Shown here piece by piece: positions 187-51,910 of a DNA stretch of 64,000 bases (the stretch's first letter is position 1; every line of letters begins with the position of its first letter). The translations under genes and the position numbers were made by a program. The notes under the pieces were generated by a model. The model was given only the letters and a program-made list of their open reading frames with translations, was not told the DNA's origin and did no database searches. Source of the DNA: Cystobacterineae bacterium (lineage in GTDB: Bacteria > Myxococcota > Myxococcia > Myxococcales > Myxococcaceae); assembly GCA_009781495.1 (NCBI GenBank), contig WQYA01000006.1, positions 1 to 64,000 on the forward strand. The letters run 5' to 3'.

Positions 187-1215
187 TTAGTCCCCACGCA
201 ATTTTTCTAGCCTTCCTTTGGTGCCGGCCACATGCCCTGGCGGCATACGCTGCAAAATGAAGGCAATGGTGTCTTGCAAAGTCTCATATATGTCGTGAGG
301 ACGGTAGTCGAGCAACTGCTGGGCCTTCGTGCTTTCCAACCAAAACCAGTGCTCCCCTATGTCCACTTCCTGCGCATCTAAATCCGGCTCCCTCCCCTTC
401 CAGTCCGCCCACTTGCCCAACATTTTCGCCCCCAAAATGTTCAACGTCTTGGGCAAACGCAGCAGGGGCATGGACACCCCGGAAAGTCTGGAAACACGCT
501 CGAAAAATTCCCTCATGCTGAAGTTCAACCCCACCAAATGCCGCCCATATAACTCTCCCTTCCTCAAGGCGTTGAAGGCAACTTGGGCCACATCCCTTAC
601 GTCCGCGACGGAAATGCCGCCGTTGGGCAAAGCCGGAATGTCCCCCTGCAAAAACTTCGCAACCGTCCACGTGGAGGAAAGCCGCTCGTCCCCCGGCCCC
701 ATCAGCAAACTGGGGTTGAGCACCACCAGAGGAATTTCATATTTCGGGCACAACTCAAGCGCCAATTTCTCTTCAAAAATTTTGGACAAATAATAGGGCC
801 ACCGCCCAACCACATCCAGAGGGTAGGGCGCCTCCTCATTCAACACGCACTCCGTCTTGGAAACCGCAATGGTCCCCGAAGTCGACATTAAAATGAAACG
901 CGGCTTTTTCTTCAGCTTGGAAATGTCGTGCAGCAAGTCGCGCGTGCAGTCGACGTGGAGTTCATACATCTGCCGCGCATCCTTGTCGCGAAAACTGACG
1001 CGCCCAGCCAGGTGGTAAATGGCATCCACACCTTCAAGCGCAGCGCGCACCAACTCCCGGTTCTTCAAATCCCCTTGCCTAAACTCCACCCCCTCGGGCA
1101 AAGCCTGGGAAGGAATACTCCTGCCTATGAGACGTATTTTGTGCCCATCCGCCAGCAATAACGGCAACAAATGCGCCCCTAAAAAACCGGTGCCTCCTGT
1201 AACCAGAATGTTCAT
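187..1215 (-). CDS. NAD-dependent epimerase/dehydratase (SDR family)
   Basis: Extended SDR of 342 residues. The N-terminal dinucleotide-binding motif TGGTGFLGAH is at residues 6-15, and the catalytic Tyr-x-x-x-Lys is at Y141-K145 (YYLSK). The substrate cannot be read from the sequence. Its ATG overlaps the stop of the upstream four-domain lipid enzyme by 4 bases (ATGA), so the two are almost certainly co-translated and probably act in one pathway. I infer reduction or epimerisation of a lipid or lipid-linked intermediate; a nucleotide-sugar epimerase is the alternative. It is the last gene of the minus-strand run. Confidence 0.85.
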   Translation of the reverse strand: MNILVTGGTGFLGAHLLPLLLADGHKIRLIGRSIPSQALPEGVEFRQGDLKNRELVRAALEGVDAIYHLAGRVSFRDKDARQMYELHVDCTRDLLHDISKLKKKPRFILMSTSGTIAVSKTECVLNEEAPYPLDVVGRWPYYLSKIFEEKLALELCPKYEIPLVVLNPSLLMGPGDERLSSTWTVAKFLQGDIPALPNGGISVADVRDVAQVAFNALRKGELYGRHLVGLNFSMREFFERVSRLSGVSMPLLRLPKTLNILGAKMLGKWADWKGREPDLDAQEVDIGEHWFWLESTKAQQLLDYRPHDIYETLQDTIAFILQRMPPGHVAGTKGRLEKLRGD

Positions 1216-4200
1216 CCCAGTGTCTCCGTCTGTTTCTCATCCAAATTCTCTAAGTCCAAAACCTTCCCCTTCGCTAACTGGCGTACCGCCTCCTCCGCAA
1301 TACGCGCAATCCAACGGTAGGCCTCGGAGCGCACCATGTTGGCAACATGCGCAGACATGGTTTGTATGCGCAAGGCAGGCCCAATGCGCACTTCCAACTC
1401 TTTGCTTTTGGGCAAAAGACTGCCCTTGGGCAAGGCGTTGAAGGAGCCGCGTATATATATGGGCAATACGTCGACGTTGGCCATGAGAGACAAATAGCCT
1501 ACCGTCGGCTTAAATTCGAGAATCTCCCCCGTCTTGGAGCGCGTCCCCTCAGGGAAAATAAGCAGGTTGTAGCCCTGCGTCAGAGACTCTGCCGCATAGC
1601 GCAGGGACTCGCGCAAGGCCCCTTGGCGCTCCATCGGAATGAGGTTTGTAAAATTTTCAAAATAAAACCTCTTCACGCTGCGGTTGAAAAAATAGTCGCG
1701 CGCCGCCAACGTCACCAAGTGCCCACCATGCTCCCCCAATGCCAACTTCACCAGGCCCATGTCCAAATGGCTGCTGTGGTTGGCAACCACCAAAAAATTT
1801 CTGTTTTGGGGAATAAAAGGCTTGCCTTCAACACGAATGTTAAACATGCGCTCATAAAGCGCCTGCTGGCCCAAAGCCAAAAACTTCCGCCCCGCTTTGG
1901 AAACCACTTCGGGAATTTGAAAGTCGTTAATGCTGGTTTCTTCCTCTCGTTTGGGCGCAGGCGGTTTGGGAGGCGCTTCTTTCTTGCGCCCGGACTGCAG
2001 GGCACGCCCTAAGTCGTCGACGGTTTGAATTTTCGTTAAGTCTAAACCTTGGCTTACCCAACCTGTTTGCTCTAATGCTACGGTTAACTCACTTAACATT
2101 AATGAGTCCATCCCCAAATCATCTACCAGCTTGGAAGAAAGCTGTATTTCTTGGGCAGACTTTTGCGAAGTCTGCGCAATCAGTTGCACCAAACTCTCCA
2201 TGTGCTCATCCAACACCTCCTTCTTGCCTCGACGCCCCCTCAACAAAGTCTGGTTTCGCGCTTCAAGGCGTTTCACAATCTCCAACACCTCCTTGCGCTT
2301 CACTTTGCGCGTGGACGTCCTCGGCAAAACACCTTCCCAAAAATAGAGCGCCTTCACACGGCGGTAGAGAGGCAGGGAGCCTGAAATTTTTCTAAAATGC
2401 TCCTCCAATTCGCGTATGGCCTCCGCACGCCCCTTCTCGGAAACATCCGGCACGCATAGGCAGGCCACCTTCTCCCCTCCCTCCTCTGAAGGAAAGCCCA
2501 CAATGGAAAGCTCCTTTATAAAGTCGTGCTTCTCATAAAGCACCTCCAACTCGTCCGGGTAGACATTCTTTCCGTTGGCGTCAATAATGACGTCCTTCTT
2601 CCGGCCTACCAAAAAGAGACGGCCGTCGGTGTCCAAATAGCCTAAGTCCCCTGTGTAAAGCCAACCGGCTTTTAGCACCGCGTCGGTTGCCTCCCTGTCC
2701 TCAAAATAACCCGCCATAATGTTGGGGCCCTTGGCCAAAACCTCCCCTACCCCGTCGTTGTCCGGGTTTAAAATTTTCAGAGAAATGCCCGGCAATACGC
2801 GCCCGACGGAGCCTGGCACCAACTTGTTGTCCGCCTTAAAAATCGTCAACACCGGCGAGGACTCTGTCAGGCCATAGCCTTCGGACATTGAAAAACCAAA
2901 ACCGTGAAACTTCTCATGCACATCCTTGGGCAAACTGGAGCCGCCGGAAACCAAATAGCGCATGCGCCCACCCAGCTTCTGGTGTATGGGCCAAAACAAA
3001 AGCTTTCCTAAGTTAATGTCGCGGTAGTCGCGAAGCTGCCGGTTAAACTCCAAAAGCACATCCATCACCTCCTCCACCACCGCAGGCTTCTGCGCAAGCT
3101 CCTGCACTATTTTCCTGTCAAACAATTGCCATACGGCGGGGACGCCTACCATGGCCGTCACCCGTTTGCTGTCCAGCGCTTCGGAAATTTTGTCGCTGGT
3201 TAATTCGTCCAAATAATTCACCTCTGCACCACTCACAAAGGGCACCAAAAGGCCCGCGGAAAATTCAAAGCTGTGGTGCAGCGGCAAAACAGACAACAAC
3301 CCCTCCCCCGCCCTTAACTCAAAAATACCCGCCAGCTTGGCCGCAAGCCAGGTGAAATTCTCATGCGTCAACATGACGCCCTTGGGCATCCCCGTCGTGC
3401 CTGAAGTAAACAACAACGAGGCCACGTCGCTTCCACTCAGCTTGGGCCTTTGCACGGCCACATCGGCGCCTTCCATGCCTTCGGCCAGGCTGATGCAGCG
3501 CACATTTATTTTCGTCAAGGCTTTGAGGAGGGTTGGAAGTCGCTCAAACACTTCTTCGGAAAACAAACAAGCGCCGGCCTTGGAGCGCTCTGCAATGTTG
3601 AGAATTTCCTTCAAGGAAAAGTCCGCATCCAAAGGTACGGCCGTTGCCCCGGCCAGGAGAATTCCAAAATAGGAAATGGCCCACTCCGGTCGGTTCTCTG
3701 AAAGCAACAATACCTGCGTCTTGGGTGAAATTCCCTCGGAGGCCAGGCGAGAGGCCACACGCCCTGCATAGTGGCGTACTTCTCCAAAAGTAAACCGCGT
3801 CTGCTCCCCCTCCTTGCCCAAATAACGAAAAGCCACACGGTGGTGAAAAGCAAAAGCCGAAGCATCCAAAAGCTCCAACAAGTCGCGGTAGGGAGGCATC
3901 GCCCTGCGTTTTTTCCGCTCCTCCTCCAGGTTGGGGAATACCCATTTCTCCAGGCCCGGGAGGTGGGTTTCAAGGAAATATTTGCGCCAATTCAGCTTCT
4001 CAGGACTCCAAAAAACCTTGTTCCTGTCTTGGAGGCTCAGCGAAGCAAACAACTCCCGCGTGTTGTCGCAGCGGAACAAATAGCGGTGTTGCCAAATGAA
4101 GGGCAGAAAAATGTCGACAATGTTCTGCACCGCTTCGGCTTGGTCCCCTATGTCCTCAAGCCCACTTTGCGCCCTCTCTATCCAGGACAATACCTTCGGC

Positions 4201-5594
4201 ATCCCCCAATTCGGCTTCACCTCTTCCAACCAGGTTTTGGCTTTCTCACTCGCTTGTATGAAAAAAGGCGCGGAGCTTAGGTTGAAGGACTGGAGGCCTA
4301 CCGTCCGAGGCTCTATGCGCGCTTTCAAACGGTTCATCCACTCATTGCCGGACTTACGCTCGCGAAAATGTTTGCGCCGGTAGAGGCCTACCAACTCGAC
4401 GGCGCGTGAAGCGAAACAAGGGCTGGAATCCCCGGAGGCCACATGGAAAATACGCCGGGCCGGTGTGGCAATGGCTTGGGCTGTGGCCGCAACCACTGCG
4501 CTGGCTACCAAGTCTACGGGAATCATATCCAAAATGGTTTGTGTTCCCGCGGGGACGCTGCGGTGGCCTTTCAACAACACAAAACACAGGGGCGCAGAAG
4601 TGGTGAAGCCTTCGTTCCACCCGGGGAAAGGAAAACGCAAAGCGCTTTCCACAATGGAAGGACGCAAAATCGCAAAATGCAAGTCGGAAGCCTGGGCTAT
4701 AACTTGTTCCCCCAGGGACTTGGTATAGGTATAGGTGTTGGGCCACCCCCAAAACTTCGCCCGCTCCATCCCTACTTCTGTTAGCTGGAGAGAAACCCAA
4801 AGCCGACGCTCGCGGTTAATGGCCATGCGCAGCGTGCGCTCGTCATGAAAGTCCTTGCCCTCTTTCTCCAAGCGCTTTTGGGCGCGCTCCTGAAATTGGG
4901 TGCTCAACGCCTTGTCTTCCGCCGTCTCCCGCACGCGCGCAATGGCCTTGGCGCAATCCTTCAACTCCTGCTCCAAAGAAAACTCCGCCTCCTTGAGTTC
5001 CTCCTTCTTGGGGAAATAGCCCACAATGGGCTCATCCTCAAAAACCAGGCCGGAGCGCTCCCCTGCGACAAATGCCGTGGAAACATGTATCAGCGGTATT
5101 TTTAAATGCTGACAAAAGGCGACGGCATTCTGTACACCCTTAACGTTAGCGTCTAAACCTACTTGTAGGGAGGGGTTAAAACTTACCAGGCCGGCACAGT
5201 TGATGAATGCCGATAACTCCCCCTGTAACCCCTCCGCTTGCGCCTCCCCCATACCCAGCCAGGCGTCTGTAATGTCCCCCTCTATTACCTCACACTTCTT
5301 CTCAATCAATTGCAGCGCCCCCCCCTCGCCATATTTCTCGCGCAGGGGGCTGAAGGGCTCGCTGGGCACCACACGCTCTATAAACCGACGCCGCGCATCG
5401 TTCAGCGAGCCTTTGCGCACCAACACATAAACCTTGTTCAGCTGCTCCCCATATTTGTCCAACAACAGGGACAAAACCACTTTGCCTAAAAAGCCCGTCA
5501 CCCCCGTCAGCAACAAATTCTTGGACGCAAATACTTGGCCCATGTGGAGTTGGGGCAAGGGGGGCTTGGGTGAAGAAACTTCGGCTGCTTCCAT
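1212..5594 (-). CDS. Four-domain lipid enzyme: acyl reductase - AMP ligase - ACP - acyltransferase (ElbD-like)
   Basis: A 1460-residue multienzyme. Domain order: (1) NAD(P)-binding thioester/fatty-acyl reductase, TGVTGFLGK near 30 and YTKS near 290; (2) acyl-CoA/AMP ligase, FTSGTTGMPKG near 730; (3) acyl carrier protein with phosphopantetheine serine in DLGMDSLML near 1161; (4) PlsC-type acyltransferase with NHSSHLD near 1273 and FPEGTRSK near 1350. All signatures look intact. The set suggests activation of a fatty acid, loading on the ACP, reduction to an alcohol or aldehyde, and transfer to a glycerol-type acceptor. This matches, from memory, ElbD of Myxococcus xanthus ether-lipid synthesis. 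The start was set at the ATG preceded by AAGGAG with 9-base spacing; an in-frame TTG at 5621 is less likely. It follows ftsY. Confidence 0.85.
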   Translation of the reverse strand: MEAAEVSSPKPPLPQLHMGQVFASKNLLLTGVTGFLGKVVLSLLLDKYGEQLNKVYVLVRKGSLNDARRRFIERVVPSEPFSPLREKYGEGGALQLIEKKCEVIEGDITDAWLGMGEAQAEGLQGELSAFINCAGLVSFNPSLQVGLDANVKGVQNAVAFCQHLKIPLIHVSTAFVAGERSGLVFEDEPIVGYFPKKEELKEAEFSLEQELKDCAKAIARVRETAEDKALSTQFQERAQKRLEKEGKDFHDERTLRMAINRERRLWVSLQLTEVGMERAKFWGWPNTYTYTKSLGEQVIAQASDLHFAILRPSIVESALRFPFPGWNEGFTTSAPLCFVLLKGHRSVPAGTQTILDMIPVDLVASAVVAATAQAIATPARRIFHVASGDSSPCFASRAVELVGLYRRKHFRERKSGNEWMNRLKARIEPRTVGLQSFNLSSAPFFIQASEKAKTWLEEVKPNWGMPKVLSWIERAQSGLEDIGDQAEAVQNIVDIFLPFIWQHRYLFRCDNTRELFASLSLQDRNKVFWSPEKLNWRKYFLETHLPGLEKWVFPNLEEERKKRRAMPPYRDLLELLDASAFAFHHRVAFRYLGKEGEQTRFTFGEVRHYAGRVASRLASEGISPKTQVLLLSENRPEWAISYFGILLAGATAVPLDADFSLKEILNIAERSKAGACLFSEEVFERLPTLLKALTKINVRCISLAEGMEGADVAVQRPKLSGSDVASLLFTSGTTGMPKGVMLTHENFTWLAAKLAGIFELRAGEGLLSVLPLHHSFEFSAGLLVPFVSGAEVNYLDELTSDKISEALDSKRVTAMVGVPAVWQLFDRKIVQELAQKPAVVEEVMDVLLEFNRQLRDYRDINLGKLLFWPIHQKLGGRMRYLVSGGSSLPKDVHEKFHGFGFSMSEGYGLTESSPVLTIFKADNKLVPGSVGRVLPGISLKILNPDNDGVGEVLAKGPNIMAGYFEDREATDAVLKAGWLYTGDLGYLDTDGRLFLVGRKKDVIIDANGKNVYPDELEVLYEKHDFIKELSIVGFPSEEGGEKVACLCVPDVSEKGRAEAIRELEEHFRKISGSLPLYRRVKALYFWEGVLPRTSTRKVKRKEVLEIVKRLEARNQTLLRGRRGKKEVLDEHMESLVQLIAQTSQKSAQEIQLSSKLVDDLGMDSLMLSELTVALEQTGWVSQGLDLTKIQTVDDLGRALQSGRKKEAPPKPPAPKREEETSINDFQIPEVVSKAGRKFLALGQQALYERMFNIRVEGKPFIPQNRNFLVVANHSSHLDMGLVKLALGEHGGHLVTLAARDYFFNRSVKRFYFENFTNLIPMERQGALRESLRYAAESLTQGYNLLIFPEGTRSKTGEILEFKPTVGYLSLMANVDVLPIYIRGSFNALPKGSLLPKSKELEVRIGPALRIQTMSAHVANMVRSEAYRWIARIAEEAVRQLAKGKVLDLENLDEKQTETLG

Positions 5595-5623: not shown

Positions 5624-7051
5624 TTAGGGCTCCTCAAACAAAGCTTCCACAAATTCTGCGGGCGAAAACGGCCTCAAGTCCTGGGCCCTCTCCCCTATGC
5701 CTATAAAACCTACCGGTAATTTTAACTCGTCACAAATGCCGATAACCACCCCACCCTTCGCCGTCCCGTCCAATTTCGTCAGCACTATCTGCGTTACGGC
5801 TACCGCTTCGGAAAATTGCTTCGCCTGGGCAATGGCATTTTGCCCCATCGTCGCATCCAATACCAACAATACCTGGTGGGGGGCCCCGGCTTGGGCTTTG
5901 CCCAATACCCGGTGAATTTTGCGCAACTCCTCCATCAACGGCTGCTTCGTATGCAAACGCCCCGCCGTGTCTACCACCACCAGCTGCGCGGCCTCCTCCC
6001 TCGCCTTCTTCACCCCCTCAAAGGCTACCGAGGCGGGGTCCCCCTCCTCCTTGCCTTGTACCAAGAGGGCCCCCGTACGCCCAGCCCAAACCTCCAACTG
6101 CTCCGTCGCCGCCGCACGGAAAGTGTCTGCGGCCGCTAATACCACCTTCCTCCCCTGCGCCTTGGCCTGCGCCGCCAGCTTGCCTATGCTCGTCGTCTTT
6201 CCGGAGCCGTTGACGCCTACCACCATCCATACCTCGGGGCCCTCCAGGGGGGGGGCAGAGGGGGCAGGGGGGAGGTTTAATATCGCCGCAATCTCCGCCT
6301 TCAACAAATGCCGTATGGCCTCCAAATCCGCCAACTCCTTCTTCTTCGCCTTGGCCTCTATGCCGGCCAAGAGGCGCGAAGCCGTATGCACCCCTATGTC
6401 TGCTGAAAATAAAAGCTCCTCTAACTCTCCCAAAAGGGCGGCGTCTATGCTGCGCGGCGTACCCCCAAACAGCCCCCCTAGCCTGGCTAAAAACCCCTCC
6501 TTGCGGGTTTTCATAAGGCCCTCCGACAACGTCTTCCCCGCCTCCCTGGCTGCCTTCTCCCTCTCCTCCTCCTCTTGCCTCTGCTTGGCCAAGCGCGCCT
6601 CCTCCTCCCGCCGCAAAGCCTCCTCCGCCTCTTGCCGTTGCTTCTCCGCCTTGGCCTGGGCCTCGGCCTCCTTCTTCTGGCGGTAGGCCAAACGCTTGGC
6701 CTCCTCCTCCTGCTCCTTCAGGGCCCGCGCTTGGGCCTCAAAAGCTTCGCGGGCCTCTTTTTCCTTCTGCGCCTTGGCCTGGGCCTCCAGTTGCTGGCGC
6801 TCGGCCCGGAGAAGCTCCGCCTGGCTGGGCGCTTCGTCGGCTGCGCGTTTTTCCTTTTGCGGCAAGGTGGGGGGGGCTATGCGCTGGGCCACCGTCGCGG
6901 AGCGCTCTTCGAGGGCAAGCTGTTGGCGAAGCCGGGTACGCCGCCGCTTCCAGAGAAAGGCAAGCAGCAACAACAGCAACAGCCCTACCCCGGCGGCCAC
7001 CCCTGCCCACCCCAACCCTAAGGCCTGTAAAGCGTCCGAAAATGTTTCCAT
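5624..7051 (-). CDS. ftsY: Signal recognition particle receptor FtsY
   Basis: SRP receptor GTPase that docks ribosome-SRP complexes at the inner membrane. 475 residues: a predicted N-terminal membrane segment (about 13-33), a long Glu/Lys/Ala-rich charged region (about 40-180), then the NG domain. Visible GTPase motifs are GVNGSGKTTS near 279, DTAGR near 360 and TKLDG near 425. The anchored N-terminus plus acidic A domain is typical of membrane-tethered FtsY. The coding sequence contains runs of eight or more C/G near 6247-6275, in the linker before the GTPase. No good ribosome-binding site is visible. The next gene starts about 30 bases beyond the stop. Confidence 0.95.
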   Translation of the reverse strand: METFSDALQALGLGWAGVAAGVGLLLLLLLAFLWKRRRTRLRQQLALEERSATVAQRIAPPTLPQKEKRAADEAPSQAELLRAERQQLEAQAKAQKEKEAREAFEAQARALKEQEEEAKRLAYRQKKEAEAQAKAEKQRQEAEEALRREEEARLAKQRQEEEEREKAAREAGKTLSEGLMKTRKEGFLARLGGLFGGTPRSIDAALLGELEELLFSADIGVHTASRLLAGIEAKAKKKELADLEAIRHLLKAEIAAILNLPPAPSAPPLEGPEVWMVVGVNGSGKTTSIGKLAAQAKAQGRKVVLAAADTFRAAATEQLEVWAGRTGALLVQGKEEGDPASVAFEGVKKAREEAAQLVVVDTAGRLHTKQPLMEELRKIHRVLGKAQAGAPHQVLLVLDATMGQNAIAQAKQFSEAVAVTQIVLTKLDGTAKGGVVIGICDELKLPVGFIGIGERAQDLRPFSPAEFVEALFEEP

Positions 7052-7096: not shown

Positions 7097-7639
7097 TTAT
7101 AGGGGGAGTGTCAAAAACTTCTGCGCCAGCTTATAAAAGAAAATAACCACCACAAGCCCCACCCCTAAAAATACCCAGGCCATGGGGCCTGTCAGAAAAA
7201 ACCTCGCCGGTTTGCGCGCGTCTGCCCGAGGCGTGGGCCACGCCGAGGGGGGGGTGTGCGCAAAAACCGCCTCCACATGGCCGTCGGCATAGTCCCTCAG
7301 GCGCGCATATTGCGCCAAAAACGAGGCCTCGTCCTTTTCCGTCACCTTTTTCAACTGCTGCGCGTCTATCAACTCCAGGTTTTGGCTTTGCGCAAAACCC
7401 AGCAACACCTCAAAGGCCTTGAGGGCTTTTTCCGTATCTCCGCCCAGGGACAAGCCCAGGGCATGGAAACAACGCTCGCCTTCCTTCACGCGGCGTATCC
7501 AACAATCCATGGAGGGCGCCAAAGGCCAAAGCCAGTGGCCGTCTGTTTGGGGAAGGGCGCCTTGGGCGCAAAGCTGTGCCTCTGTTTCTTCAAGGCCATA
7601 GGCGCCGTCTTGTTTCTGCAGAAAAAATTCATAACGCAT
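7097..7639 (-). CDS. Hypothetical protein with C-terminal membrane anchor
   Basis: 180 residues, family not recognised. Most of the protein is soluble; a single hydrophobic segment sits at about 150-172 (LTGPMAWVFLGVGLVVVIFF), followed by a short KLAQK tail, so it looks like a tail-anchored membrane protein with its bulk in the cytoplasm. It lies between the PBP1A gene (46 bases upstream) and ftsY (45 bases downstream) on the same strand and is probably co-transcribed. No nucleotide-binding or metal-binding motif is evident. The ribosome-binding site is weak. Confidence 0.7.
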   Translation of the reverse strand: MRYEFFLQKQDGAYGLEETEAQLCAQGALPQTDGHWLWPLAPSMDCWIRRVKEGERCFHALGLSLGGDTEKALKAFEVLLGFAQSQNLELIDAQQLKKVTEKDEASFLAQYARLRDYADGHVEAVFAHTPPSAWPTPRADARKPARFFLTGPMAWVFLGVGLVVVIFFYKLAQKFLTLPL

Positions 7640-7685: not shown

Positions 7686-10247
7686 TCAGGGGGTTTCCAT
7701 GAAAAAGCGGTGGGAGTCCATTTCTCCCTTGGCGCTGGTTTGCTGCTTGGGCTCGGTGCCCTTCACAAAATACATTTCGGTGGCGTCGCGCGGCGCTGTC
7801 CCTGAGGAGGCCAAGAGGCCGTTGCTTTTGTCAATGCGTACACGTAGGAGGTTAGCGTCAGGGGGGGGCATAAACTCGGACTGGGGGTAGCCCTCTAGGG
7901 CCCCCTTCATATAGGCCAACCATAGGGGTAAAGCCGCCCTACCCCCGGTTTCATAGCGCCCTAGGGGGTGCTCATTCTTGTCATAGCCTACCCATACCAC
8001 CGTCACCAAGTCCTGCGTAAACCCGGCAAACCATGCATCAAAAGAGTCATTCGTCGTGCCCGTCTTCCCGGCGGCGGGTTTTTTGAGGGCCTGGGCCGCA
8101 GCGCCCGTACCTTCGCGTACAACGGAGCGCAGGAGGTCCGTCGTCAAAAAAGCCGTCTCCTTGGAAAGCACCCGCTCGCCCTCCTCAAACAAGGCGGCAT
8201 AGCCTGCCGCCATGCGGTCTGTCAGCGGGGCCCAAACATCGTCATAGGCGGTATGGTCTTCCAGCGTCCTGCCAAAACGGTCTTCAATTTTGCGCACCAT
8301 CCACGAAGGTGTTTTGAGGCCGCCTCTGTTGAAAACGGCATAGGCATTGGCCAACTCTATGGGCTTGACGCAGGAGCTGCCGAGGGCTGCTGAAAAGTCA
8401 GAGTTCAAGGGCGTCGTAAACCCAAAACGCGCATGCCACTCTTCCATGGACTTGACGCCCACCGCAATGAAGGTTTTCACCGCGGGAATATTCATAGAGA
8501 GGGTAATGGCCGTGCGCAACGTCACATCCCCCACAAAATTTTGGCCATAGTTGGCCGGCTTCCAACGTGTCTCGTTTTCGGTGTCGTCATAGACAATGGG
8601 GCTGTCGACAAGCACCGTCGCCTGCGTCCATTTGAGTTGCTCCATGGCCGCGGAGTAGACAAAGGGTTTGAAGGAGCTGCCCGGTTGGCGGCAGGCTTGG
8701 AAGGCGCGGTTAAACTCGTTGGCATCAAAGTCATAGCCGCCCACCATCGCCACCACATAGCGGCGGTGGGGGTCCAGGGAAACCAGGGCCGTCTGCAACT
8801 CGGGCTCCTGCTCCAATTTCAGCCAGGCCTTCGTGCCCTCCGCCGCCCTTTCAAATTCCTCCGGGGGCGCTTTGTCAAACAGCGTTTTGGCTTCCACCAC
8901 ACGCACCACCACCACATCGTCCAAACGTAGGGCGGCGCCCACCTTGGAAATAAGGGCATTGGGGTAATATTGGTCAGGGTTAAGCTTACGCGCCCAGCGC
9001 ATGCCGGCTAAGGGTAACAAACCCTCCTCCTCCCCTATTTTAATTTTGGCCCACTGCCCATTGCCCCCAAGGGCTACGACGCGGCCTATATAAAGCGCAT
9101 TCTCCTTGAGGGGCTTGCCCGCCAAAACCTTCTTCACCTGCTCGTCCAACTCGTTTTGGGCCTGCGCACCCTCCACACGTTTGAGGGGGCCGCGGTAGCC
9201 TTGGCGCTTGTCCACGGAAAGCAATTCCTGCAACACCGCCTCCTGGGCCATGCGCTGCTTCTCCGCATCCATCGCCGTAAACACTTTGAGGCCCCCCCTC
9301 AGCAGGGCCGGGTTGCCCCAACGTTCCACCACATAGCGGCGTACTTCCTCGGTGTAGTAGGGGGCAAATTCGTGGAAGACGTCTTCTACGCCATATACCT
9401 CTATGGGCGCCCCCTCCGCCTCCTCCCTCTCCGCCTCCCCTATCATCCCCTCTTCAAACATACGCCTCAACACATAGCCCCGGCGACGCTTCGCATCCTC
9501 CGGGTTTCTGAAGGGGGAATATTTGGAGGGCGCTTGCGGCAGCCCCGCCAAAAGCGCCATCTGCGCCAAGGAGAGTTCCGCTACACCTTTGCGAAAATAA
9601 TTCTCCGCGGCGGACTGTATGCCATAGCTGTGGTGCCCCAAATAAACATTGTTCAAATAGAGGTAGAGTATCTCTTCCTTGCTGAGCGCCGCCTCCAGGC
9701 GAAAAGCCAACATGGCTTCGCGGAGTTTGCGCCCCAAAGTCTTGGCGGTCGCGGTTTTGTAGCCCTCGGCCTGAATCATAATGGCTTTGGCCGTCTGCTG
9801 CGTCAGCGTGGAGCCGCCTTGCATGGAGCCGGAGCCCAAGGCTTTGGCAAGCACCGTCTTATAGGCCGCACGGGCCGTACCCAACAAGTCCACACCAAAA
9901 TGATCGAAAAACTGGCTGTCCTCAGAGGCGACAAATGCCTGCACCAGACGCTTGGGAATGCGCTCATAGGGAATCACTTTGCGGCGCTCTGCATAAAACT
10001 CCCCTACCAATACCCCCTCTGCGCTGAATATTTCCGTTAAAACAGGGGGGTGGTAGTCGGCCACACTGGGGACTTCGGCCAACCCAGGCGAAAACTCAAT
10101 ATAAATGACAGCTGCTGCCGCCACCACCACCGTCACAGCCGTCAATAACAAAAATATAAACATCCTCCAAAGCCAGCCAAGCCAGGAGCGGCGCGGCATT
10201 TGGAATACACGTCTCATAAAAGTCGATGGCGTCTTCTTTTTCTTCAT
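7686..10247 (-). CDS. Penicillin-binding protein 1A family (glycosyltransferase/transpeptidase)
   Basis: Bifunctional class A PBP, 853 residues, polymerising and crosslinking peptidoglycan in the periplasm. One N-terminal membrane segment (about 20-50) is followed by the GT51 glycosyltransferase (EDSQFFDHFG near 106, then GGSTLTQQ) and the transpeptidase with SSFK near 522, SMN near 582 and KTGTTN near 727, so all catalytic motifs are intact. An inserted OB-like region between the domains fits the PBP1A subfamily. The ATG overlaps the stop of the upstream pseudouridine synthase (ATGA), implying co-translation. Confidence 0.95.
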   Translation of the reverse strand: MKKKKTPSTFMRRVFQMPRRSWLGWLWRMFIFLLLTAVTVVVAAAAVIYIEFSPGLAEVPSVADYHPPVLTEIFSAEGVLVGEFYAERRKVIPYERIPKRLVQAFVASEDSQFFDHFGVDLLGTARAAYKTVLAKALGSGSMQGGSTLTQQTAKAIMIQAEGYKTATAKTLGRKLREAMLAFRLEAALSKEEILYLYLNNVYLGHHSYGIQSAAENYFRKGVAELSLAQMALLAGLPQAPSKYSPFRNPEDAKRRRGYVLRRMFEEGMIGEAEREEAEGAPIEVYGVEDVFHEFAPYYTEEVRRYVVERWGNPALLRGGLKVFTAMDAEKQRMAQEAVLQELLSVDKRQGYRGPLKRVEGAQAQNELDEQVKKVLAGKPLKENALYIGRVVALGGNGQWAKIKIGEEEGLLPLAGMRWARKLNPDQYYPNALISKVGAALRLDDVVVVRVVEAKTLFDKAPPEEFERAAEGTKAWLKLEQEPELQTALVSLDPHRRYVVAMVGGYDFDANEFNRAFQACRQPGSSFKPFVYSAAMEQLKWTQATVLVDSPIVYDDTENETRWKPANYGQNFVGDVTLRTAITLSMNIPAVKTFIAVGVKSMEEWHARFGFTTPLNSDFSAALGSSCVKPIELANAYAVFNRGGLKTPSWMVRKIEDRFGRTLEDHTAYDDVWAPLTDRMAAGYAALFEEGERVLSKETAFLTTDLLRSVVREGTGAAAQALKKPAAGKTGTTNDSFDAWFAGFTQDLVTVVWVGYDKNEHPLGRYETGGRAALPLWLAYMKGALEGYPQSEFMPPPDANLLRVRIDKSNGLLASSGTAPRDATEMYFVKGTEPKQQTSAKGEMDSHRFFMETP

Positions 10248-11278
10248 CGGCTTTCTTCTTTCTTTTCCTTTTGCGCTTTCTTTTCAAGGCCCAAAAGCGC
10301 AAGCCCCCCCTCCTGCTTGTGGACACCAAAACCCATGTTCTCCAAAACCATGCCCAACTCCGAGGGCAATGGGGAAAACAGGCGCATCCCTTCCCCGTCC
10401 TTCGGGTGTGCAAACTCCAATGCACAGGCATGCAGAAACATGCGGCCAAGCCCCCAATGCTTCTTCGCCAGGCGGTTAAACGCAAAGTCGCCATAGCGGG
10501 TGTCGCCCAGCACGGGGCGACTCCAAGAGGAAAAATGCCGACGTATTTGGTGGGTACGCCCTGTTTCCAAAGCCACGGACAACAAGCTGCACCCGCTTTG
10601 GCACTCCAATTGCCGCCACAATGTCCGCGCTTCCTGCATACGCCTGCCGTGCTTTAGCTTAGAAGCATAACTCTGCTGACGCTCCGCTAGGGCCACCTCT
10701 ATCCTCCCCCTTGGGCTTGGCATCTTCCCCTGTACCAGTGCGAGGTAACGTTTGTATACCTTCCCCTCCGTTAATAACTTCGTAAAATGCACCATGGCCG
10801 GACGGCGCTTGGCCACCACCAAAACGCCCGAAGTATCCTTGTCCAAACGGTGCGCAGGGCTTGCCGAAAAACCATTGCGAATGGCCTTGGGCCCCAAATA
10901 GGCCCGCACAAAATCCACCACCGTCCCATGGGGTATGCCGCTGCCGGGGTGCACAGCCATGCCGGCAGGTTTGTCCAGCACCAAAATCCAATCGTCCTCA
11001 TGCAAAATGCCCATCGGAATGTGTGTCTTCAGGGGGGCTTGGGGTTTAGGGGAAACCTCGCCCACAGGCGCACTCAAAGCCTCCAAAGGCTTGCGTATGC
11101 TCACCACATCCCCCACAGCGAGACGCTGCTCGGGCTTCACCCGCTTGTTGTTGAGACGAAGGTTTTTCGTCCTAACCAGTTTAAACAAGTGCGAGGCGGG
11201 GACATTGGGAAATTGCTTCCGAAGGAATTTGTCCAGTCGTATGCCGACATCATCTTCGGAAATGGAAAGTTCAAACAT
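10244..11278 (-). CDS. rluD: RluA/RluD-family 23S rRNA pseudouridine synthase
   Basis: Converts uridines of large-subunit rRNA to pseudouridine. 344 residues: an N-terminal S4-type RNA-binding domain (about 1-70, GIRLDKFLRK) and a catalytic domain with the signature HRLDKDTSG near 143, containing the catalytic Asp. The ATG at 11278 was chosen because it starts directly at the S4 domain; an upstream in-frame start would add 14 residues. RluD is the best guess within the family, but RluA/RluC cannot be excluded. The C-terminus is Lys/Glu-rich and overlaps the PBP gene start. Confidence 0.85.
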   Translation of the reverse strand: MFELSISEDDVGIRLDKFLRKQFPNVPASHLFKLVRTKNLRLNNKRVKPEQRLAVGDVVSIRKPLEALSAPVGEVSPKPQAPLKTHIPMGILHEDDWILVLDKPAGMAVHPGSGIPHGTVVDFVRAYLGPKAIRNGFSASPAHRLDKDTSGVLVVAKRRPAMVHFTKLLTEGKVYKRYLALVQGKMPSPRGRIEVALAERQQSYASKLKHGRRMQEARTLWRQLECQSGCSLLSVALETGRTHQIRRHFSSWSRPVLGDTRYGDFAFNRLAKKHWGLGRMFLHACALEFAHPKDGEGMRLFSPLPSELGMVLENMGFGVHKQEGGLALLGLEKKAQKEKKEESR

Positions 11279-11403
11279 GAATAGAAGCCTGTGCTTTCCA
11301 TATCGCTTGGCAGCGGCCAAGCCAAGTCTACAACCAAAAAAAATGAGGGGGCCGCTATTTTCGGGTTGGAAAGAATGCGCAAAGCACAGATAAACGCCAG
11401 CCT

Positions 11404-15394: not shown

Positions 15395-18300
15395 ATGAAC
15401 TCAGGTATGGAATTGAAACAGAAAACACGCGCGCTGCTTTGGATGCTGTGGACGTTTTTCGGCCTGCTGCCCTTGGGCGCGCCGGCCGCACCCCAATATG
15501 GCGAAGCCGCCCTCGTCGCCGAGTGGAGCTATGGCAGCAACCCCACCCCCCCAACCCCTGTCCCCGCAACAGACGGAGAAAATGCCGACAGCGCAACCCT
15601 TCGCAATTGGAAAAATGCTGACATGACTTATAGCAGCTCCAGCCTGGCCGTCAGCGGCTGGACAGGAGACGGCGATAAATATTGGCTGCTCTCCTTCTCC
15701 TCAAAAAACTTCGAAAACCTCACCCTCTCCCTCTCCCAACGCTCCTCGGGAACCGGGCCCAGGGACTTTCAACTTCAATACTCTGTCGACGGAAACCAAT
15801 GGAATAACATTGCAAATACCAGCGTCACCTCCAGCAATTTGACAACGACTTTCAACAACCTCCCCTTGCCTGCTGAAATGAATGACTTGGAGCAAGCCTA
15901 TCTGAGGCTTTTGCTGGTCTCCAACTTGAGTTCCCGCGCCGGTACGGGGGCATATGCGCCGACAGAAAGCATTGCTTCCGGCGGCATCAGCAATATCAAC
16001 AACATCTCCATCATCGGCAGGTATGTCGGCGAAAGCGGCCCCACCACTGAAAAAACCGCCCCGGTTGCTGCTAACCCCCCTACCGGCGCTGTTGAGCTGA
16101 ATACCCTGGTTGCCCTCTCCTCTAATACCCAGGATGCCCTTATCAGCTATAGCCTTAACGGTAGCGGTTATGTCCCTTATACCGAACCCTTTGCCCTCCC
16201 CTCCCTCCCTGCTGCCGTTAGCGCCTATGCCCATAAGGAAGGCATGGACGACAGCGACATCTCTACCTTTGTATATACCTTGAAAAAAACCGTTGTGCCC
16301 TTCGAGGAATATTATCCCTATTTCGGCCAACTCCATGCCCATACCAGCAACTCCGACGGGACCGGCAGCTTTGAACAGGCCTATGCCATGGCCAGAGACT
16401 TGGCCGGGCTTGACTTCTTCGCGGTGACGGACCACTCCAACTATTTCGACAACGCCTCCAACCTGGGCCATATGTCCACCGGGGGCGGCATTAACGAGCG
16501 TTGGGCAACCGGTTTGGAGGTCGCCGAGGCCTTCAACGCCGACGGCGCCTTCGTCGCCCTTTTGGGCTTCGAAATGACGTGGAGCAACCGGGCCTATGGC
16601 CATATGAATACTTTTAATACCCTAGGTTATGTTAGCACCAACAACCCGGTTTATAACGCGGCCGGCGGCGTCGGCCTTCGGGCTTATTATAACCTGTTGG
16701 CGCAATACCCTTCCTCCATCAGTATGTTTAACCACCCGGGCACAACGTTTGGCGACTTCAGCAACTTCGCCTATCGTACCGCGGCGGCCGACAAAGCCAT
16801 CTGCCTCATTGAGGTGGGCAACGGCGAGGGAAGCAACCAACAACTCAACAGAGGCTATTGGCGCTCCGACGAATATTATGACAACGCCTTGGCCAAAGGC
16901 TGGCACCTGGCCCCAACCAACAACCAGGACAACCACACCGCCAGCTGGGGCACCTCCAACAAACACCGAGTCGTGGCCCTCGCGAAGGAACTGAACCGCG
17001 AAAACATTTATGACGCGCTTTCCAACCGACGTGTCTATGCCAGCGAGGACGATAATTTTAGACTGGACTACACCCTTAACGGCATGCCGATGGGCACCAT
17101 TTTCGAAGAGACGCCGGACAGCCTCGAATTTTCCATTCGACTGGCGGACCCCGACGAAGGCGTCGGCATGGTTTATATTGTAAGCAAAAACGGCGTCGTT
17201 TTGGATTCGAAGTACGTTGCTGAGCAAGCGTATGTTTGGACTTTCACGCTGCCGCCGGAATATGAATTCTATTATGTCAAAGTCGTCCAAGACGATGGGG
17301 ATAGGATTTTATCCGCCCCTATTTGGATAAGGGACGTAGAAATAGAGGAGGTGGGCATCAGCGGGCTAACGGTTGCTGCCGGCCCCCATTATGTGGGCTC
17401 TCCCGTACAAACCACCCTTGAAATTTTTAATAACGCTAACCGTATTCTAACGGTTAACAATATTCGCTATATGCTCGACGAAACGCTTGTGAAAAGCGTT
17501 GACAACCCCGGCTATGTCAACGCCGAGTCGGTGCTTTCCTATGCCAACACGGTGATTCCCAGCAGTGAGGGCCAACAGACGCTGAGGGTGGTGGTCACCA
17601 CCGACAGGGGCGTGTTTGAGAAAAGCGCCACATTCAACGCCTTCGACGCTGCAAACATGCCGGTGGTTGTGGTGGATGCCGCCCACAGCAATGCCTATGT
17701 CAACGGCGACTATGCGAACAACATCCGCGCGCTCGGCGCCTCGGCCCTCAACAACGGCATTCAATTGAAGCAGGCCGACGTGTTGGACGCAGACGCGCTC
17801 CAAAACGCAAAAGGGCTCGTTATAAATCCACCCCAACGTACCATGGAGTATGTGTTTAGGGAGGAGGAGTTGAGCGCTCTGAGGGCTTATGCCGAAGCGG
17901 GCGGCAACTTTATCATTAGCGGCCGGGCGGACTATGGCGACCCCACGAATGACGCTCAAACTTCGAGGATGATAAACAGCGTCCTTGCCGCTATTGGCGC
18001 AACCACCCGCATCAACGACGATGAGGTGGTGTGGAACAACAACACCACCTTTCAGTTTGTCACCGACAACTATAACAGGAATCATCCCCTGCTAAAAAAT
18101 TTGGAGCTGAGCAGGGGCATGCGTTTTTATAGCGGAGCTTCGCTCATTATAAATGCGGACAGAGTGGCCGACGGAACGGTGCTCCCCATGCTCAACGCCC
18201 TGGACGGTTGCCTTTCCTTCGACTCGGACGGGCAGAACGACGCGACACCCGCTGGAAGCGGCAGAAACATGTCTCTGCTCGTCAGCGAAAAGTTGCCCGG

Positions 18301-19273
18301 CGGGGGGACGGCCTATATCAGCGGCTCGGTATTTATGAGCGACTTTGAAAGCGCCTATGACAACCCCCTTCTTGCAGAGGCCATGTTGAAGGCGATGGTG
18401 GCTCCCAAGCAGCTCGTTACCCCCATCGCCGAGGTTCGCCGTGCACCTATGAGTGAGCGCTTCACCGTGGAAGCTACGGTTACGACGGCAACTTTCGGTG
18501 CGCAGCCCCATTCGTATTTTGCTTATACCATGTATGTTCAAGACGAGACGGGGGGTATTGCCCTATACCCCATTCACAGCGAGCCTTTTGAGGTGGGGCA
18601 GAAAGTGCGCGTCACCGGCAGCTTAGGGGTTTATGAGGGCGAGCTTCAGCTGGTGATGGAAGAGGTGTCTAGGGATGTCACCCTCCTCGACGGGACCCTA
18701 AACCCTAGGGACCCCCTACCACTTTCTACCGCTGACAGCATGGACGCTGCTTATCAGGGCCTGCTCGTCTCAACGCAGGGTACGGTAACCCGTGTTGTCA
18801 GCGCCGACGGGGTTATTGGGGACATTTATCTCCAAGACGAAAGCGGCGTGGAAGCCCATATCCTCATCAACGGATATATCGGCTATTCCGGAGACGGCGC
18901 GGAAGTGGAGGACTTTGTCAAAGTCGGCGCAGAAATATCCGTCGTCGGCATCGCCTCCGAAGGACTGGACGGCCTTCGTCTGCGGGTACGCGACCGCAGT
19001 GAAATAAGGCTGGGGAAGTCAGAAGCGCCAGGCGGCGAGGAGCCGGGGACTGGGGAGCCGGGCGGCGAAGCGTCAGGCGGTGAAGCGTCGGGGGGTGGGG
19101 TGTCGGAGGGTGAGGAGCCGGGGGGTGAGGAGCCGGGGGGTGGGGTGTCCGGCGAAGAGCCCCTCCATGTCAAGAAGCCGCACGCCGGCTGCTCCTCGGC
19201 CTCGGGGGCGCCCTTGGCCATGTTGGCCCTTGTTTTCTGGGGCTTGGCTCGAAGGCGCAGAGTGAGGGGCTAA
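15395..19273 (+). CDS. Secreted PHP-domain metallohydrolase with MYXO-CTERM-like tail
   Basis: 1292 residues. Signal-like N-terminus (about 10-32, ending GAPAAP), a beta-rich domain, then a chitobiase-C-like module ending near 298. The PHP domain follows: HAHTSNSDG near 314 and TDHSNYFD near 347 are metal-binding motifs, with HPG and NNQDNHT further on, as in the CehA/McbA-type family. After this come an Ig-like segment, a domain starting PVVVVDAAHSNAYVNGDYAN, an OB-like module, a Gly/Glu/Pro-rich repeat linker and a tail: GCSSASG near 1265, a membrane segment, then RRRR. That tail resembles MYXO-CTERM sorting signals. Substrate unknown; phosphoester cleavage at the cell surface is inferred. 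GGAGG precedes the ATG by 7 bases. Confidence 0.75.
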   Translation: MNSGMELKQKTRALLWMLWTFFGLLPLGAPAAPQYGEAALVAEWSYGSNPTPPTPVPATDGENADSATLRNWKNADMTYSSSSLAVSGWTGDGDKYWLLSFSSKNFENLTLSLSQRSSGTGPRDFQLQYSVDGNQWNNIANTSVTSSNLTTTFNNLPLPAEMNDLEQAYLRLLLVSNLSSRAGTGAYAPTESIASGGISNINNISIIGRYVGESGPTTEKTAPVAANPPTGAVELNTLVALSSNTQDALISYSLNGSGYVPYTEPFALPSLPAAVSAYAHKEGMDDSDISTFVYTLKKTVVPFEEYYPYFGQLHAHTSNSDGTGSFEQAYAMARDLAGLDFFAVTDHSNYFDNASNLGHMSTGGGINERWATGLEVAEAFNADGAFVALLGFEMTWSNRAYGHMNTFNTLGYVSTNNPVYNAAGGVGLRAYYNLLAQYPSSISMFNHPGTTFGDFSNFAYRTAAADKAICLIEVGNGEGSNQQLNRGYWRSDEYYDNALAKGWHLAPTNNQDNHTASWGTSNKHRVVALAKELNRENIYDALSNRRVYASEDDNFRLDYTLNGMPMGTIFEETPDSLEFSIRLADPDEGVGMVYIVSKNGVVLDSKYVAEQAYVWTFTLPPEYEFYYVKVVQDDGDRILSAPIWIRDVEIEEVGISGLTVAAGPHYVGSPVQTTLEIFNNANRILTVNNIRYMLDETLVKSVDNPGYVNAESVLSYANTVIPSSEGQQTLRVVVTTDRGVFEKSATFNAFDAANMPVVVVDAAHSNAYVNGDYANNIRALGASALNNGIQLKQADVLDADALQNAKGLVINPPQRTMEYVFREEELSALRAYAEAGGNFIISGRADYGDPTNDAQTSRMINSVLAAIGATTRINDDEVVWNNNTTFQFVTDNYNRNHPLLKNLELSRGMRFYSGASLIINADRVADGTVLPMLNALDGCLSFDSDGQNDATPAGSGRNMSLLVSEKLPGGGTAYISGSVFMSDFESAYDNPLLAEAMLKAMVAPKQLVTPIAEVRRAPMSERFTVEATVTTATFGAQPHSYFAYTMYVQDETGGIALYPIHSEPFEVGQKVRVTGSLGVYEGELQLVMEEVSRDVTLLDGTLNPRDPLPLSTADSMDAAYQGLLVSTQGTVTRVVSADGVIGDIYLQDESGVEAHILINGYIGYSGDGAEVEDFVKVGAEISVVGIASEGLDGLRLRVRDRSEIRLGKSEAPGGEEPGTGEPGGEASGGEASGGGVSEGEEPGGEEPGGGVSGEEPLHVKKPHAGCSSASGAPLAMLALVFWGLARRRRVRG
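19019..19155 (+). repeat. Gly/Glu/Pro-rich tandem repeat within the PHP protein
   Basis: Repeated 15-base-like units (GGTGAGGAGCCGGGG and variants) encode GGEEP, GGEAS and GGGVS pentapeptides. They form the flexible linker between the OB-like module and the sorting tail. In-frame copy-number change is likely. Confidence 0.75.
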
Positions 19274-29201: not shown

Positions 29202-29253
29202 TGAATGATAACTGACTTTATATAATACAGTTATTACACAGGAAATGATTCAA

Positions 29254-30558
29254 ATGAAAATCTCTGTTTCTAAAATATCAACAAAAGGAATGACCCTCAT
29301 AGAAACACTGATTGGAATCAGCATCGCCATTGGTTTGCTGGCGGCAACACTCTATGTAGGAACAGAGCTGCACAGAAAATCCTCCTGGAAAGAAGATGCC
29401 TTGGCTTTGCACAGCACGGGAATGCAAATTCTTCAATCGCTTGAGGAGCGTGTGTTGAATGCAGGGAATGGATTTGGCTCAGGCTTGCTGATAATGGCTG
29501 GGGAACAACATCGCTATGCCATTGAAGTATATCCTTGTAGAAATGAGTGTGTGGCTGCACAAAACTATGGGCCCTATAGGAACATGCTGTCAGACAAACG
29601 CTCTGATGAAATTCAAATTCTCCGCGTTTCTCCCAATTATGCTCGAAACATTCTCTATGAGATGAAGGATGCACAAAACTCCATCTCCAAATATGCAACG
29701 GGAGCAACACCCAACAATGTTGCCACAGAGTTTATATGGGAGCCGAATTGGATATATGCCATTAAAGAAAGAAACAACTCTTGGGGGTGCGCTCTTCGAC
29801 TGAGCATAGAGACTGAAAACAATCAAAACATTATTTCATGCACAGACTATAATAACTCCAATTTCTGCAGATGTATTGCATTGCAACCTCCGACAAGGCC
29901 GATGGGGCAACTTTGGTCTCGAAATATGTTTAGGGATTGGCTGGTAGGCCCTTTGGATGGGTTTAGCGCACGCATAAAATTTACAAATCAGATACCTCGA
30001 CTTGAAATAACAGACTCTTTTGTAGATGTGGGCTCTGTGGATGGAACAACCCTTGGAAGCGCTTGGTGGACAGACCGGACAAAGGCAAGCCGGGCTGTTT
30101 TGAGTTTGAATGCCCAGCTGGGGATTCCAGACCCTGCCAATCCAAACCAATTGCTTTGGTTCCCAGACGCAAGTCGAAATCACCCCTATATTTCCTTGTG
30201 CACACGAAGCGGCTTTTATACCGCTGAACTTGCACGTTGTTCTGAAATTGTTCAAAATGTGTTTGGCGGGTTGGACCCTGATTTGGATATTGAAGGTGTT
30301 CAAAACGCATTGATGCGCCGCGTTCGCGCGGTTCGTTTGATTTTGGTTGTTCAATCCCCAAGAGTAGATGCCCAAAAAATCAGCTGGGATGGCAGCGCTT
30401 TTGAAGTCAACGCCGATGGGACGTTTCAGAATGGAAAACTCACGCGAAGATTTGAAAAAATCATCTGGCCTCCCAATCTTCAGCAATCTTTTGAAAAAGG
30501 AAATATTCCAGAGGAAGGCAGCGGTATAGGTGGTGTTCTCTTTCCTCTCAATCCATAA
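29254..30558 (+). CDS. PilW-like minor pilin
   Basis: 434 residues. Prepilin motif KG/MTLIETLIGISIAIGL with Glu at +5, then a large globular domain, as for PilW. The ATG at 29254 has AGGA about 10 bases upstream; an ATG three codons earlier is nearly on top of that site. It lies 52 bases after the pilV-like gene and 15 before the next. Confidence 0.75.
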   Translation: MKISVSKISTKGMTLIETLIGISIAIGLLAATLYVGTELHRKSSWKEDALALHSTGMQILQSLEERVLNAGNGFGSGLLIMAGEQHRYAIEVYPCRNECVAAQNYGPYRNMLSDKRSDEIQILRVSPNYARNILYEMKDAQNSISKYATGATPNNVATEFIWEPNWIYAIKERNNSWGCALRLSIETENNQNIISCTDYNNSNFCRCIALQPPTRPMGQLWSRNMFRDWLVGPLDGFSARIKFTNQIPRLEITDSFVDVGSVDGTTLGSAWWTDRTKASRAVLSLNAQLGIPDPANPNQLLWFPDASRNHPYISLCTRSGFYTAELARCSEIVQNVFGGLDPDLDIEGVQNALMRRVRAVRLILVVQSPRVDAQKISWDGSAFEVNADGTFQNGKLTRRFEKIIWPPNLQQSFEKGNIPEEGSGIGGVLFPLNP

Positions 30559-46922: not shown

Positions 46923-46926
46923 CTAG
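46759..46926 (-). repeat. Intergenic repeat family, copy 3 (most complete hairpin)
   Basis: Contains a perfect inverted repeat GGTTTCTGC/GCAGAAACC in the middle and shares blocks with the other two copies: GTCCAATC on the minus strand, CCCCAGCTCGC, CTCCACCTGTGT. The left end (CTCCAGACCGGTTTCCGGCTG) resembles the inverted ends of copies 1 and 2; the right end reaches the stop codon of the phoU fusion gene. Confidence 0.7.
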
Positions 46927-48026: not shown

Positions 48027-48038
48027 TGCCAACATGCC

Positions 48039-48914
48039 TCATCCAAATCGGCCCGTAATATAGTCTTCCGTTCTCTGGTTGCCTGGTTTCGTGAAAAGAA
48101 TGTCGGTGTCATTGAACTCCACCAGCTCACCCATATAAAAAAACGCCGTGTACTGAGACACTCGGGCGGCTTGTTGCATGTTGTGCGTTACAATGACAAT
48201 GGTGCAAACTTTTCCAATGCTGTGAATGAGTTCCTCAATGCGTGAGGTTGCAATGGGGTCCAAAGCAGAGCATGGCTCATCCATCAACAATATTTCCGGC
48301 TTCAACGCCAAGGCCCTCGCAATGCAAAGGCGCTGCTGCTGTCCTCCGGACAAACTCGCTCCGGAACGGTTGAGGATGTCCTTCACCTCACCCCACAAGG
48401 CCGCCTGCTCCAACACCTGCTCCACCAACTCATCCGGACGCGAAACCTTCACGCCGTTGAGTTTCAAACCAGCCAGCACATTCTCCCTAATCGACATCGT
48501 TGGAAAGGGGTTTGGCCTTTGAAAAACCATCCCGACTCGGCTTCGAATTTTGACCGGGTCTATCTTCCTGTCATAAATATCCACACCATCCAACAACACT
48601 CTTCCCGCAACATGTGCCTTGGGCACCACCTCATGCATGCGGTTGAGACACCGGATGAATGTGGATTTTCCACAACCTGAGGGGCCTATAATGGCGGTTA
48701 CCCTTTTGTCGGCTACAGATAGGGATACGCCCTTAATAATTTCTGTCTTCCCAAACCATGCCCTCAAATCCTTAACCTGCATCTTCCCCAAAGCCCCCAC
48801 CTCCTCCCCTTGGCTACGCAGTATCCTCTCTTTGCTTAAGGGCGCTTCTTCTTCGGAAATAGCCACGGCTCCTCCCGTGTCCCTAAGCTGAAACATTTGC
48901 TTTGCCGTTATCAT
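48039..48914 (-). CDS. pstB: Phosphate ABC transporter ATPase PstB
   Basis: 291 residues: Walker [11 protein letters not shown]-loop [12 protein letters not shown], signature [15 protein letters not shown], Walker [14 protein letters not shown]-loop VTHNM, and ending DYITGRFG as in other PstB. About 45 residues precede the ATPase core. Start 48914 overlaps the pstA stop by 4 bases; the longer upstream frame lies within pstA and was rejected. Confidence 0.95.
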
Positions 48915-51873: not shown

Positions 51874-51910
51874 TGTTTTGTTCCTTTCAAACATGGCTTA
51901 TTTCAGGCGT

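Follow-up and report, generated by a model that had tools for sequence, protein, structure and literature searches.

Retention of elbBCDE in a genome-reduced genus of Myxococcaceae as a probable alkyl-ether lipid pathway without plasmalogens

The window analysed here is a 64,000-nucleotide stretch of DNA from a Cystobacterineae bacterium (assembly GCA_009781495.1, contig WQYA01000006.1, positions 1 to 64,000). It carries an elbD-elbE gene pair, in which elbD encodes a single-chain, four-domain lipid enzyme. In Myxococcus xanthus, elbD mutants lose most ether lipids (PMC9131029; this paper, PMC7024585, PMC7583248, PMC11868695, and PMC12611868 are cited from excerpts). Phylogenetic and sequence analyses suggest, with a probability of roughly 0.8, that the genome-reduced genus of the window has kept elbB, elbC, elbD, and elbE as an alkyl-ether lipid pathway without plasmalogens; the alkyl-ether product is predicted. 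The genus is a natural experiment. The four genes are kept, whereas neither CarF nor the AGPS route was found; this retention pattern suggests that elbBCDE is the functional unit of alkyl-ether lipid formation. The enzyme itself is real, conserved, and essentially known, belongs to a known pathway, and adds one more ElbD. The pattern also suggests an overlooked participant in ElbC, a protein of unknown function according to PMC9131029. ElbC is the part most worth follow-up, along with the reduced genome, a minimal set provided by nature.

Identity and phylogeny of ElbD

The minus-strand frame is open from an ATG at position 5594 to the stop at 1212, and its product of 1,460 residues contains four domains (Table 1). 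Matches for the reductase include 7eoz, a solved fatty acyl-CoA reductase (FAR). Two further Pfam matches were under the cut-off: "Sterile" (FAR C-terminal, residues 487-553) and, slightly, AMP-binding_C (residues 1015-1097). Signature motifs occur in the reductase region (GVTGFLGK at residue 31, YTYTK at 288), the ligase (TSGTTGMPKG at 730, YGLTE at 907, TGDLG at 981), and the carrier and acyltransferase part (GMDSL at 1161, NHSSHLD at 1272, PEGTRS at 1348). The key motif residues of all four domains are invariant across a 19-sequence alignment. The stop of elbD overlaps elbE, a short-chain dehydrogenase/reductase (SDR) gene, in an ATGA at 1212-1215. The sequence-only reading had described an ElbD-like chain with four domains and all signature residues, coupled by overlap to an SDR, and had proposed a comparison of domain order with M. 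xanthus. These descriptions agree with the Pfam matches, motif positions, and alignment. The domain order is identical to that of M. xanthus ElbD, whose reductase is N-terminal (PMC9131029), and the same four domains are listed for elbD homologues in a sponge study (PMC9426513). Given also the family, the partner gene, and the tree position, "ElbD-like" was too cautious a name.

The SDR gene comes after elbD, on its strand, in each of 20 loci fetched from relatives. Among 80 named loci, elbE lies no more than 2 kb downstream of elbD in 73. Six others break off with their contig, and in L138 the distance is about 9 kb; adjacency thus holds in 73 of the 74 loci with room. The position after elbD is also that of elbE in M. 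xanthus (PMC9131029). An unrelated SDR gene was considered and rejected; the conserved adjacency to elbD identifies it as ElbE.

ElbD was found in 54 of 60 related genomes (G000-G059: the window's own, G000, and 59 others) at E<=1e-100. In a quick tree of 78 rows, the window ElbD falls within a 36-row set (SH-aLRT 100), which consists of the window protein, 33 Myxococcota-labelled sequences, and two whose record titles say Pseudomonadota. The window ElbD and those of two termite metagenome-assembled genomes (MAGs) form their own set inside it, on a long stem branch (0.57), and the remainder are Myxococcaceae-type sequences. The Acidobacteriota copies form one separate set. The identity of the window ElbD to copies from Myxococcus species other than M. 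xanthus is 55-57%. These sequence comparisons suggest that the gene is probably the M. xanthus ElbD orthologue and that it and its partner ElbE were passed down within the Myxococcaceae. Horizontal gain was rejected, since the tree puts the gene with the Myxococcaceae, and no relative turned up among the viral contigs scanned.

Two record titles deserve comment. The elbA-E genes of L095 (BNCN01000002.1), titled Comamonas sp. KCTC 72670, are very close to those of Myxococcus, and this assembly is therefore probably mislabelled or contaminated. The MAG of L065 (WQTM01000221.1), titled "Proteobacteria bacterium", is Myxococcaceae by its ElbD and its kinship to the window's genus.

Genome reduction and the split cluster

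The window's genome comprises 2.27 Mb in 102 contigs and is 88% complete. Two genomes of the same genus measure 2.1 and 2.7 Mb, compared with 3.9-13.2 Mb in 33 other genomes examined from the family. The family is Myxococcaceae, with Myxococcus, Corallococcus, Archangium, and Citreicoccus, and is thus M. xanthus' own. The two same-genus genomes, WQTM01 (isolate Co191P4bin16) and WRKR01 (Th196P3bin117), are termite-gut MAGs. Co191 and Th196 stand for Cornitermes sp. and Termes hospes, and five Myxococcaceae MAGs from termite guts have been reported (PMC7024585). Judging from its genus, the window's own genome may also come from a termite gut. One COX1-family gene each was found in G000-G002, compared with three in G024 and four in G009. 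The sole one found in G000 is a cbb3-type CcoNO fusion (L188, G000:C16:13800-18500), and a low-oxygen life would therefore fit.

Upstream of elbD, both G024 (a large Myxococcaceae genome) and L109 (a named Myxococcus locus) carry genes for an NAD epimerase, a HAD hydrolase, and a 536-residue protein, which fit elbA, elbB, and elbC as described in PMC9131029. No contiguous elbBCDE operon of the Myxococcus kind was found in the window's genome. There, elbD-elbE lie on contig C6, and an elbC-elbB pair lies on C66 (3086-5423, L168). Their products are 64% (ElbB) and 71% (ElbC) identical to the copies in G024. The same adjacent pair occurs in the two other genomes from the genus, G001 (C101, L169) and G002 (C6, L170).

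Such separation has precedents, as elbB and elbC need not be linked to elbD-elbE (PMC9131029). Among the 80 named loci, elbC is directly upstream of elbD in 57, and 11 end too early to see it; no adjacent elbC is present in the other 12 of 69 loci with upstream room, both termite MAGs included. An operon split unique to the window's genus was therefore rejected. The sequence-only reading had placed the enzyme outside a recognised ether-lipid cluster and had proposed a search for other elb genes. That search recovered both elbB and elbC, and the placement was half right: the operon is split, but the SDR is ElbE and elbB-elbC lie elsewhere in the genome. The cluster is split, not missing, and the puzzle of its context dissolves.

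Selection on the retained genes

Pairwise dN/dS ratios (NG86) between genus members were calculated for elbD, elbC, elbE, ftsY, and PBP1A. The values are 0.077 and 0.079 for elbD, 0.069 and 0.061 for elbC, 0.144 and 0.106 for elbE, 0.125 and 0.107 for ftsY, and 0.125 (one pair) for PBP1A. Both elbD and elbC are under strong purifying selection, with stronger constraint than ftsY.

Ether-lipid routes in the genus

The plasmalogen desaturase CarF/TMEM189 (PF10520), which together with ElbD makes up the aerobic plasmalogen pathway, was found in 30 of 33 other family genomes but in none of the three from the window's genus. For AGPS, the query was taken from G024, at the place where MXAN_1676 would presumably lie by the gene order of M. 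xanthus. At E<=1e-60, matches were found in five of the 60 genomes (three at 76-100% identity, two at 33%), and no orthologue was found in the window's genus. A putative orthologue from G024 of the MXAN_1675-type reductase-acyltransferase of the AGPS operon has counterparts in three of the 60 genomes, none of them in the window's genus. With close AGPS matches in three genomes and ElbD in 54, ElbD without a close AGPS is therefore the rule in these relatives. The AGPS operon has a minor role in M. xanthus (PMC9131029).

The functional frame comes from M. xanthus (PMC9131029). Disruption of elbE lowers ether lipids and is not rescued by elbD; disruption of elbA has no effect. Disruption of elbB is only partially rescued by elbD, and the authors attribute the elbB effect to polarity. 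That elbD alone rescues only in part is consistent with a requirement for elbC and/or elbE. The acyl-CoA synthetase and acyl carrier protein (ACP) activities of ElbD were confirmed in vitro, those of the reductase and acyltransferase were not seen, and the i15:0 aldehyde depends on elbD. In that paper, the steps by which the ElbD route arrives at the alkyl ether lipid count as unknown. By analogy with the M. xanthus ligase and ACP activities, the AMP ligase of the window ElbD would activate a fatty acid and load it onto its own ACP. The reductase may then turn the carrier-bound acyl chain into an aldehyde or alcohol, and the acyltransferase domain may act on the glycerol backbone. ElbE (SDR), ElbC (LarA superfamily), and ElbB (HAD phosphatase) might complete the ether bond without AGPS. 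No CarF was found, and an alkyl-ether phospholipid, not a plasmalogen, would therefore be expected.

ElbC as a putative nickel-pincer protein

The ElbC proteins of the window's genome and of G024 score 832.8 and 849 bits against NF052592 (nickel-pincer nucleotide (NPN)-dependent hydroxyacid isomerase, LarAH14/15/16), both above the cut-off of 740. All 13 aligned ElbC proteins share the GGHK lysine, the LHR histidine, and an HH pair; from the alignments and the known features of LarA, we take these to be the cofactor lysine, the first catalytic histidine, and the nickel ligand. The best solved relatives are 9q2u and 9q3j, by their titles LarA-like proteins with a single catalytic histidine, and the second histidine is missing from LarA groups 14 and 15 (PMC12611868). 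ElbC is thus classed by sequence as a nickel-pincer protein of the LarA superfamily (groups 14-16), with predicted NPN binding and isomerase activity.

All 54 ElbD-bearing genomes match NF052592 at E<=1e-100, 51 of them over the cut-off, and the sub-cut-off matches in G051, G052, and G055 resemble fragments at contig ends. Five of the six ElbD-less genomes have no match, and G037 has only a sub-cut-off, paralogue-like one. Five of these six belong to one family and one to another, and they therefore represent about two independent events. LarC, which with LarB and LarE serves NPN cofactor synthesis, was found in 57 of the 60 genomes, including all three of the window's genus. Against the nickel reading of ElbC, G004, G007, and G038 have ElbC, yet no LarC was found in them. 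If ElbC depends on the nickel-pincer cofactor, G038 is a surprise, being 95% complete with a full ElbC.

A tentative and rather doubtful proposal would make ElbC essential to the ElbD pathway. ElbC might abstract the C2-hydroxyl hydride of an acyl-glycerol intermediate and then return it, like the AGPS flavin in animals, with the sn-1 ester exchanged for, or reduced to, an ether. If true, this role would account for AGPS-free ether-lipid synthesis in most ElbD-bearing Myxococcia. LarA groups 14-16 would gain their missing function, and elbBCDE of the reduced genus would be close to a minimal ether-lipid kit. In the limited literature collection searched, no link was found between ElbC and LarA, nickel-pincer and plasmalogen, or DUF2088 and fatty acyl.

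Alternative explanations

Several points weigh against the retention of elbBCDE as an alkyl-ether lipid pathway. The long stem branch of the genus in the ElbD tree might leave room for a functional shift. The M. xanthus ElbD sequence itself is absent from the compared records, which include other Myxococcus species, and from the tree. Carrying elbD is no proof of ether lipids: Pontiella MAGs have elbD homologues, and the studied Pontiella had no detected ether lipids (PMC11868695). The evidence for a lack of CarF and AGPS comes from three MAGs that are 88, 94, and 99% complete. Finally, constraint on elbE is weaker than on ftsY in one comparison and about the same in the other. The stem branch, the split of elbDE from elbBC, and the Pontiella case also allow a different product: in place of a membrane ether lipid, ElbD and ElbE might now make a storage or signalling product such as a fatty alcohol, a wax ester, or another acyl compound. 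A reductase, ligase, ACP, and acyltransferase would suit such products too. However, elbB and elbC are also retained, elbC is even more constrained than elbD, and ElbD and ElbC are co-present across the 60 genomes, which makes a storage or signalling product unlikely.

It is also conceivable, and quite improbable, that ElbD supplies only the fatty alcohol, with the ether bond made by an unrecognised AGPS-like flavoprotein. A candidate would be the PF02913 protein, of which each genome of the genus has one, and M. xanthus has an AGPS operon, of minor role. The G000 protein (on C4) has 464 residues and is GlcD-like, with its best match to glcD (290.8 bits) under the cut-off of 567.9; the rarity of close AGPS orthologues (3 of 60 genomes) compared with ElbD (54 of 60) also argues against this. 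A reductive route by a Ger/PlsA-type enzyme, with ElbD incidental, appears very improbable. G002 encodes a 1,476-residue acyl-CoA dehydratase activase/DUF2229 protein (L190:2359-6789, G002:C1), in the size range of Ger (159 kDa, PMC11150832). DUF2229 was not matched in G000, G001, G024, G009, or G022. Activase-type proteins have other roles too, which again counts against such a route. As the genome is reduced and draft, elbD could be a gene in decay, or an error of assembly or binning. This is scarcely credible for a full-length gene with all motifs, a dN/dS of about 0.08, and the order ftsY-elbD-elbE repeated in two other genomes of the genus.

Neighbouring genes and other features of the window

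The coordinates of elbD, its domains, and its neighbours are given in Table 1.

Table 1. Features of the elbD region, in positions of the window
Feature	Position	Strand	Evidence and remarks
elbD: acyl reductase - AMP ligase - ACP - PlsC-type acyltransferase	1212..5594	minus	1460 aa; Pfam, motifs, alignment, tree
elbD acyl reductase, NAD_binding_4, residues 29-366	4497..5510	minus	Pfam E 2.8e-49
elbD AMP-binding (acyl-adenylating) domain, residues 578-964	2703..3863	minus	Pfam 4.8e-74; P-loop TSGTTGMPKG at residue 730
elbD ACP domain, residues 1134-1198	2001..2195	minus	PP-binding 3.5e-6, above cut-off; phosphopantetheine Ser1164
elbD acyltransferase domain, residues 1253-1381	1452..1838	minus	Pfam Acyltransferase 1.8e-22; HX4D at 1273
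elbE: extended SDR (Epimerase family)	187..1215	minus	4-nt overlap with elbD
ftsY	5624..7051	minus	29 nt upstream of elbD; neighbour in window's genus only, outside pathway
PBP1A	7686-10247		confirmed by family match
RluA-family gene	10244-11320		confirmed by family match

The genes ftsY, elbD, and elbE are co-directional, and a GAAGGAG element in the gap between ftsY and elbD is a plausible ribosome-binding site. The position beside ftsY and PBP1A, remarked on in the sequence-only reading, is correct for both genes. Among the 80 named loci, ftsY lies near elbD in two, both from the window's genus. The ftsY/PBP1A context is therefore a lineage rearrangement, and a functional meaning for it was rejected. 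A 180-residue protein beside ftsY (7097-7639) has no Pfam or NCBIfam match, is 63% identical in G002, and is encoded by the fastest-evolving gene among those measured (dN/dS 0.26). Promoter-like sites occur at chance level. Terminator-like sites number 33, against a shuffle mean of 20.2 (sd 5.6), and were not used in the interpretation.

Elsewhere in the window, a PhoU domain is fused to an arsenate-reductase-like (ArsC) domain (46923-48035), next to phosphate-transport-like genes for an ABC ATPase (48039-49016) and a binding protein (50764-51894). Three long open reading frames (ORFs), at 15395-19273 (1292 aa), 25009-27945 (978 aa), and 29245-30558 (437 aa), have no Pfam match at 1e-5, and the latter two lie within a lower-G+C stretch. 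In 60001-64000, G+C falls to 0.43-0.38, compared with about 0.55 over most of the window; an 847-residue ORF at 59874-62417 has no NCBIfam match.

Comparison with known systems

Partial likeness to other families is seen for both ElbD and ElbC. The ligase region of the window ElbD aligns with NF006386 (acyl-ACP--phospholipid O-acyltransferase with fused ligase), but the match is only partial, reaching 212.7 bits where the cut-off is 1221. The MXAN_1675-type protein shares an N-terminal acyl reductase and a C-terminal acyltransferase with ElbD; unlike ElbD, no ligase or ACP is described for it in the excerpts of PMC9131029. For ElbC, the nearest families are LarAH14/15/16. LarAH14 of Frankia was inactive on the substrates tested (PMC7583248), and the excerpts and other literature consulted name no substrate for groups 14-16.

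The closest known system is that of M. xanthus. It differs from the window's genus in that the operon is split here, ftsY lies upstream here, and CarF and AGPS were not found here. The two share the four domains in one chain, elbE alongside elbD, the family Myxococcaceae, and elbB and elbC in the genome.

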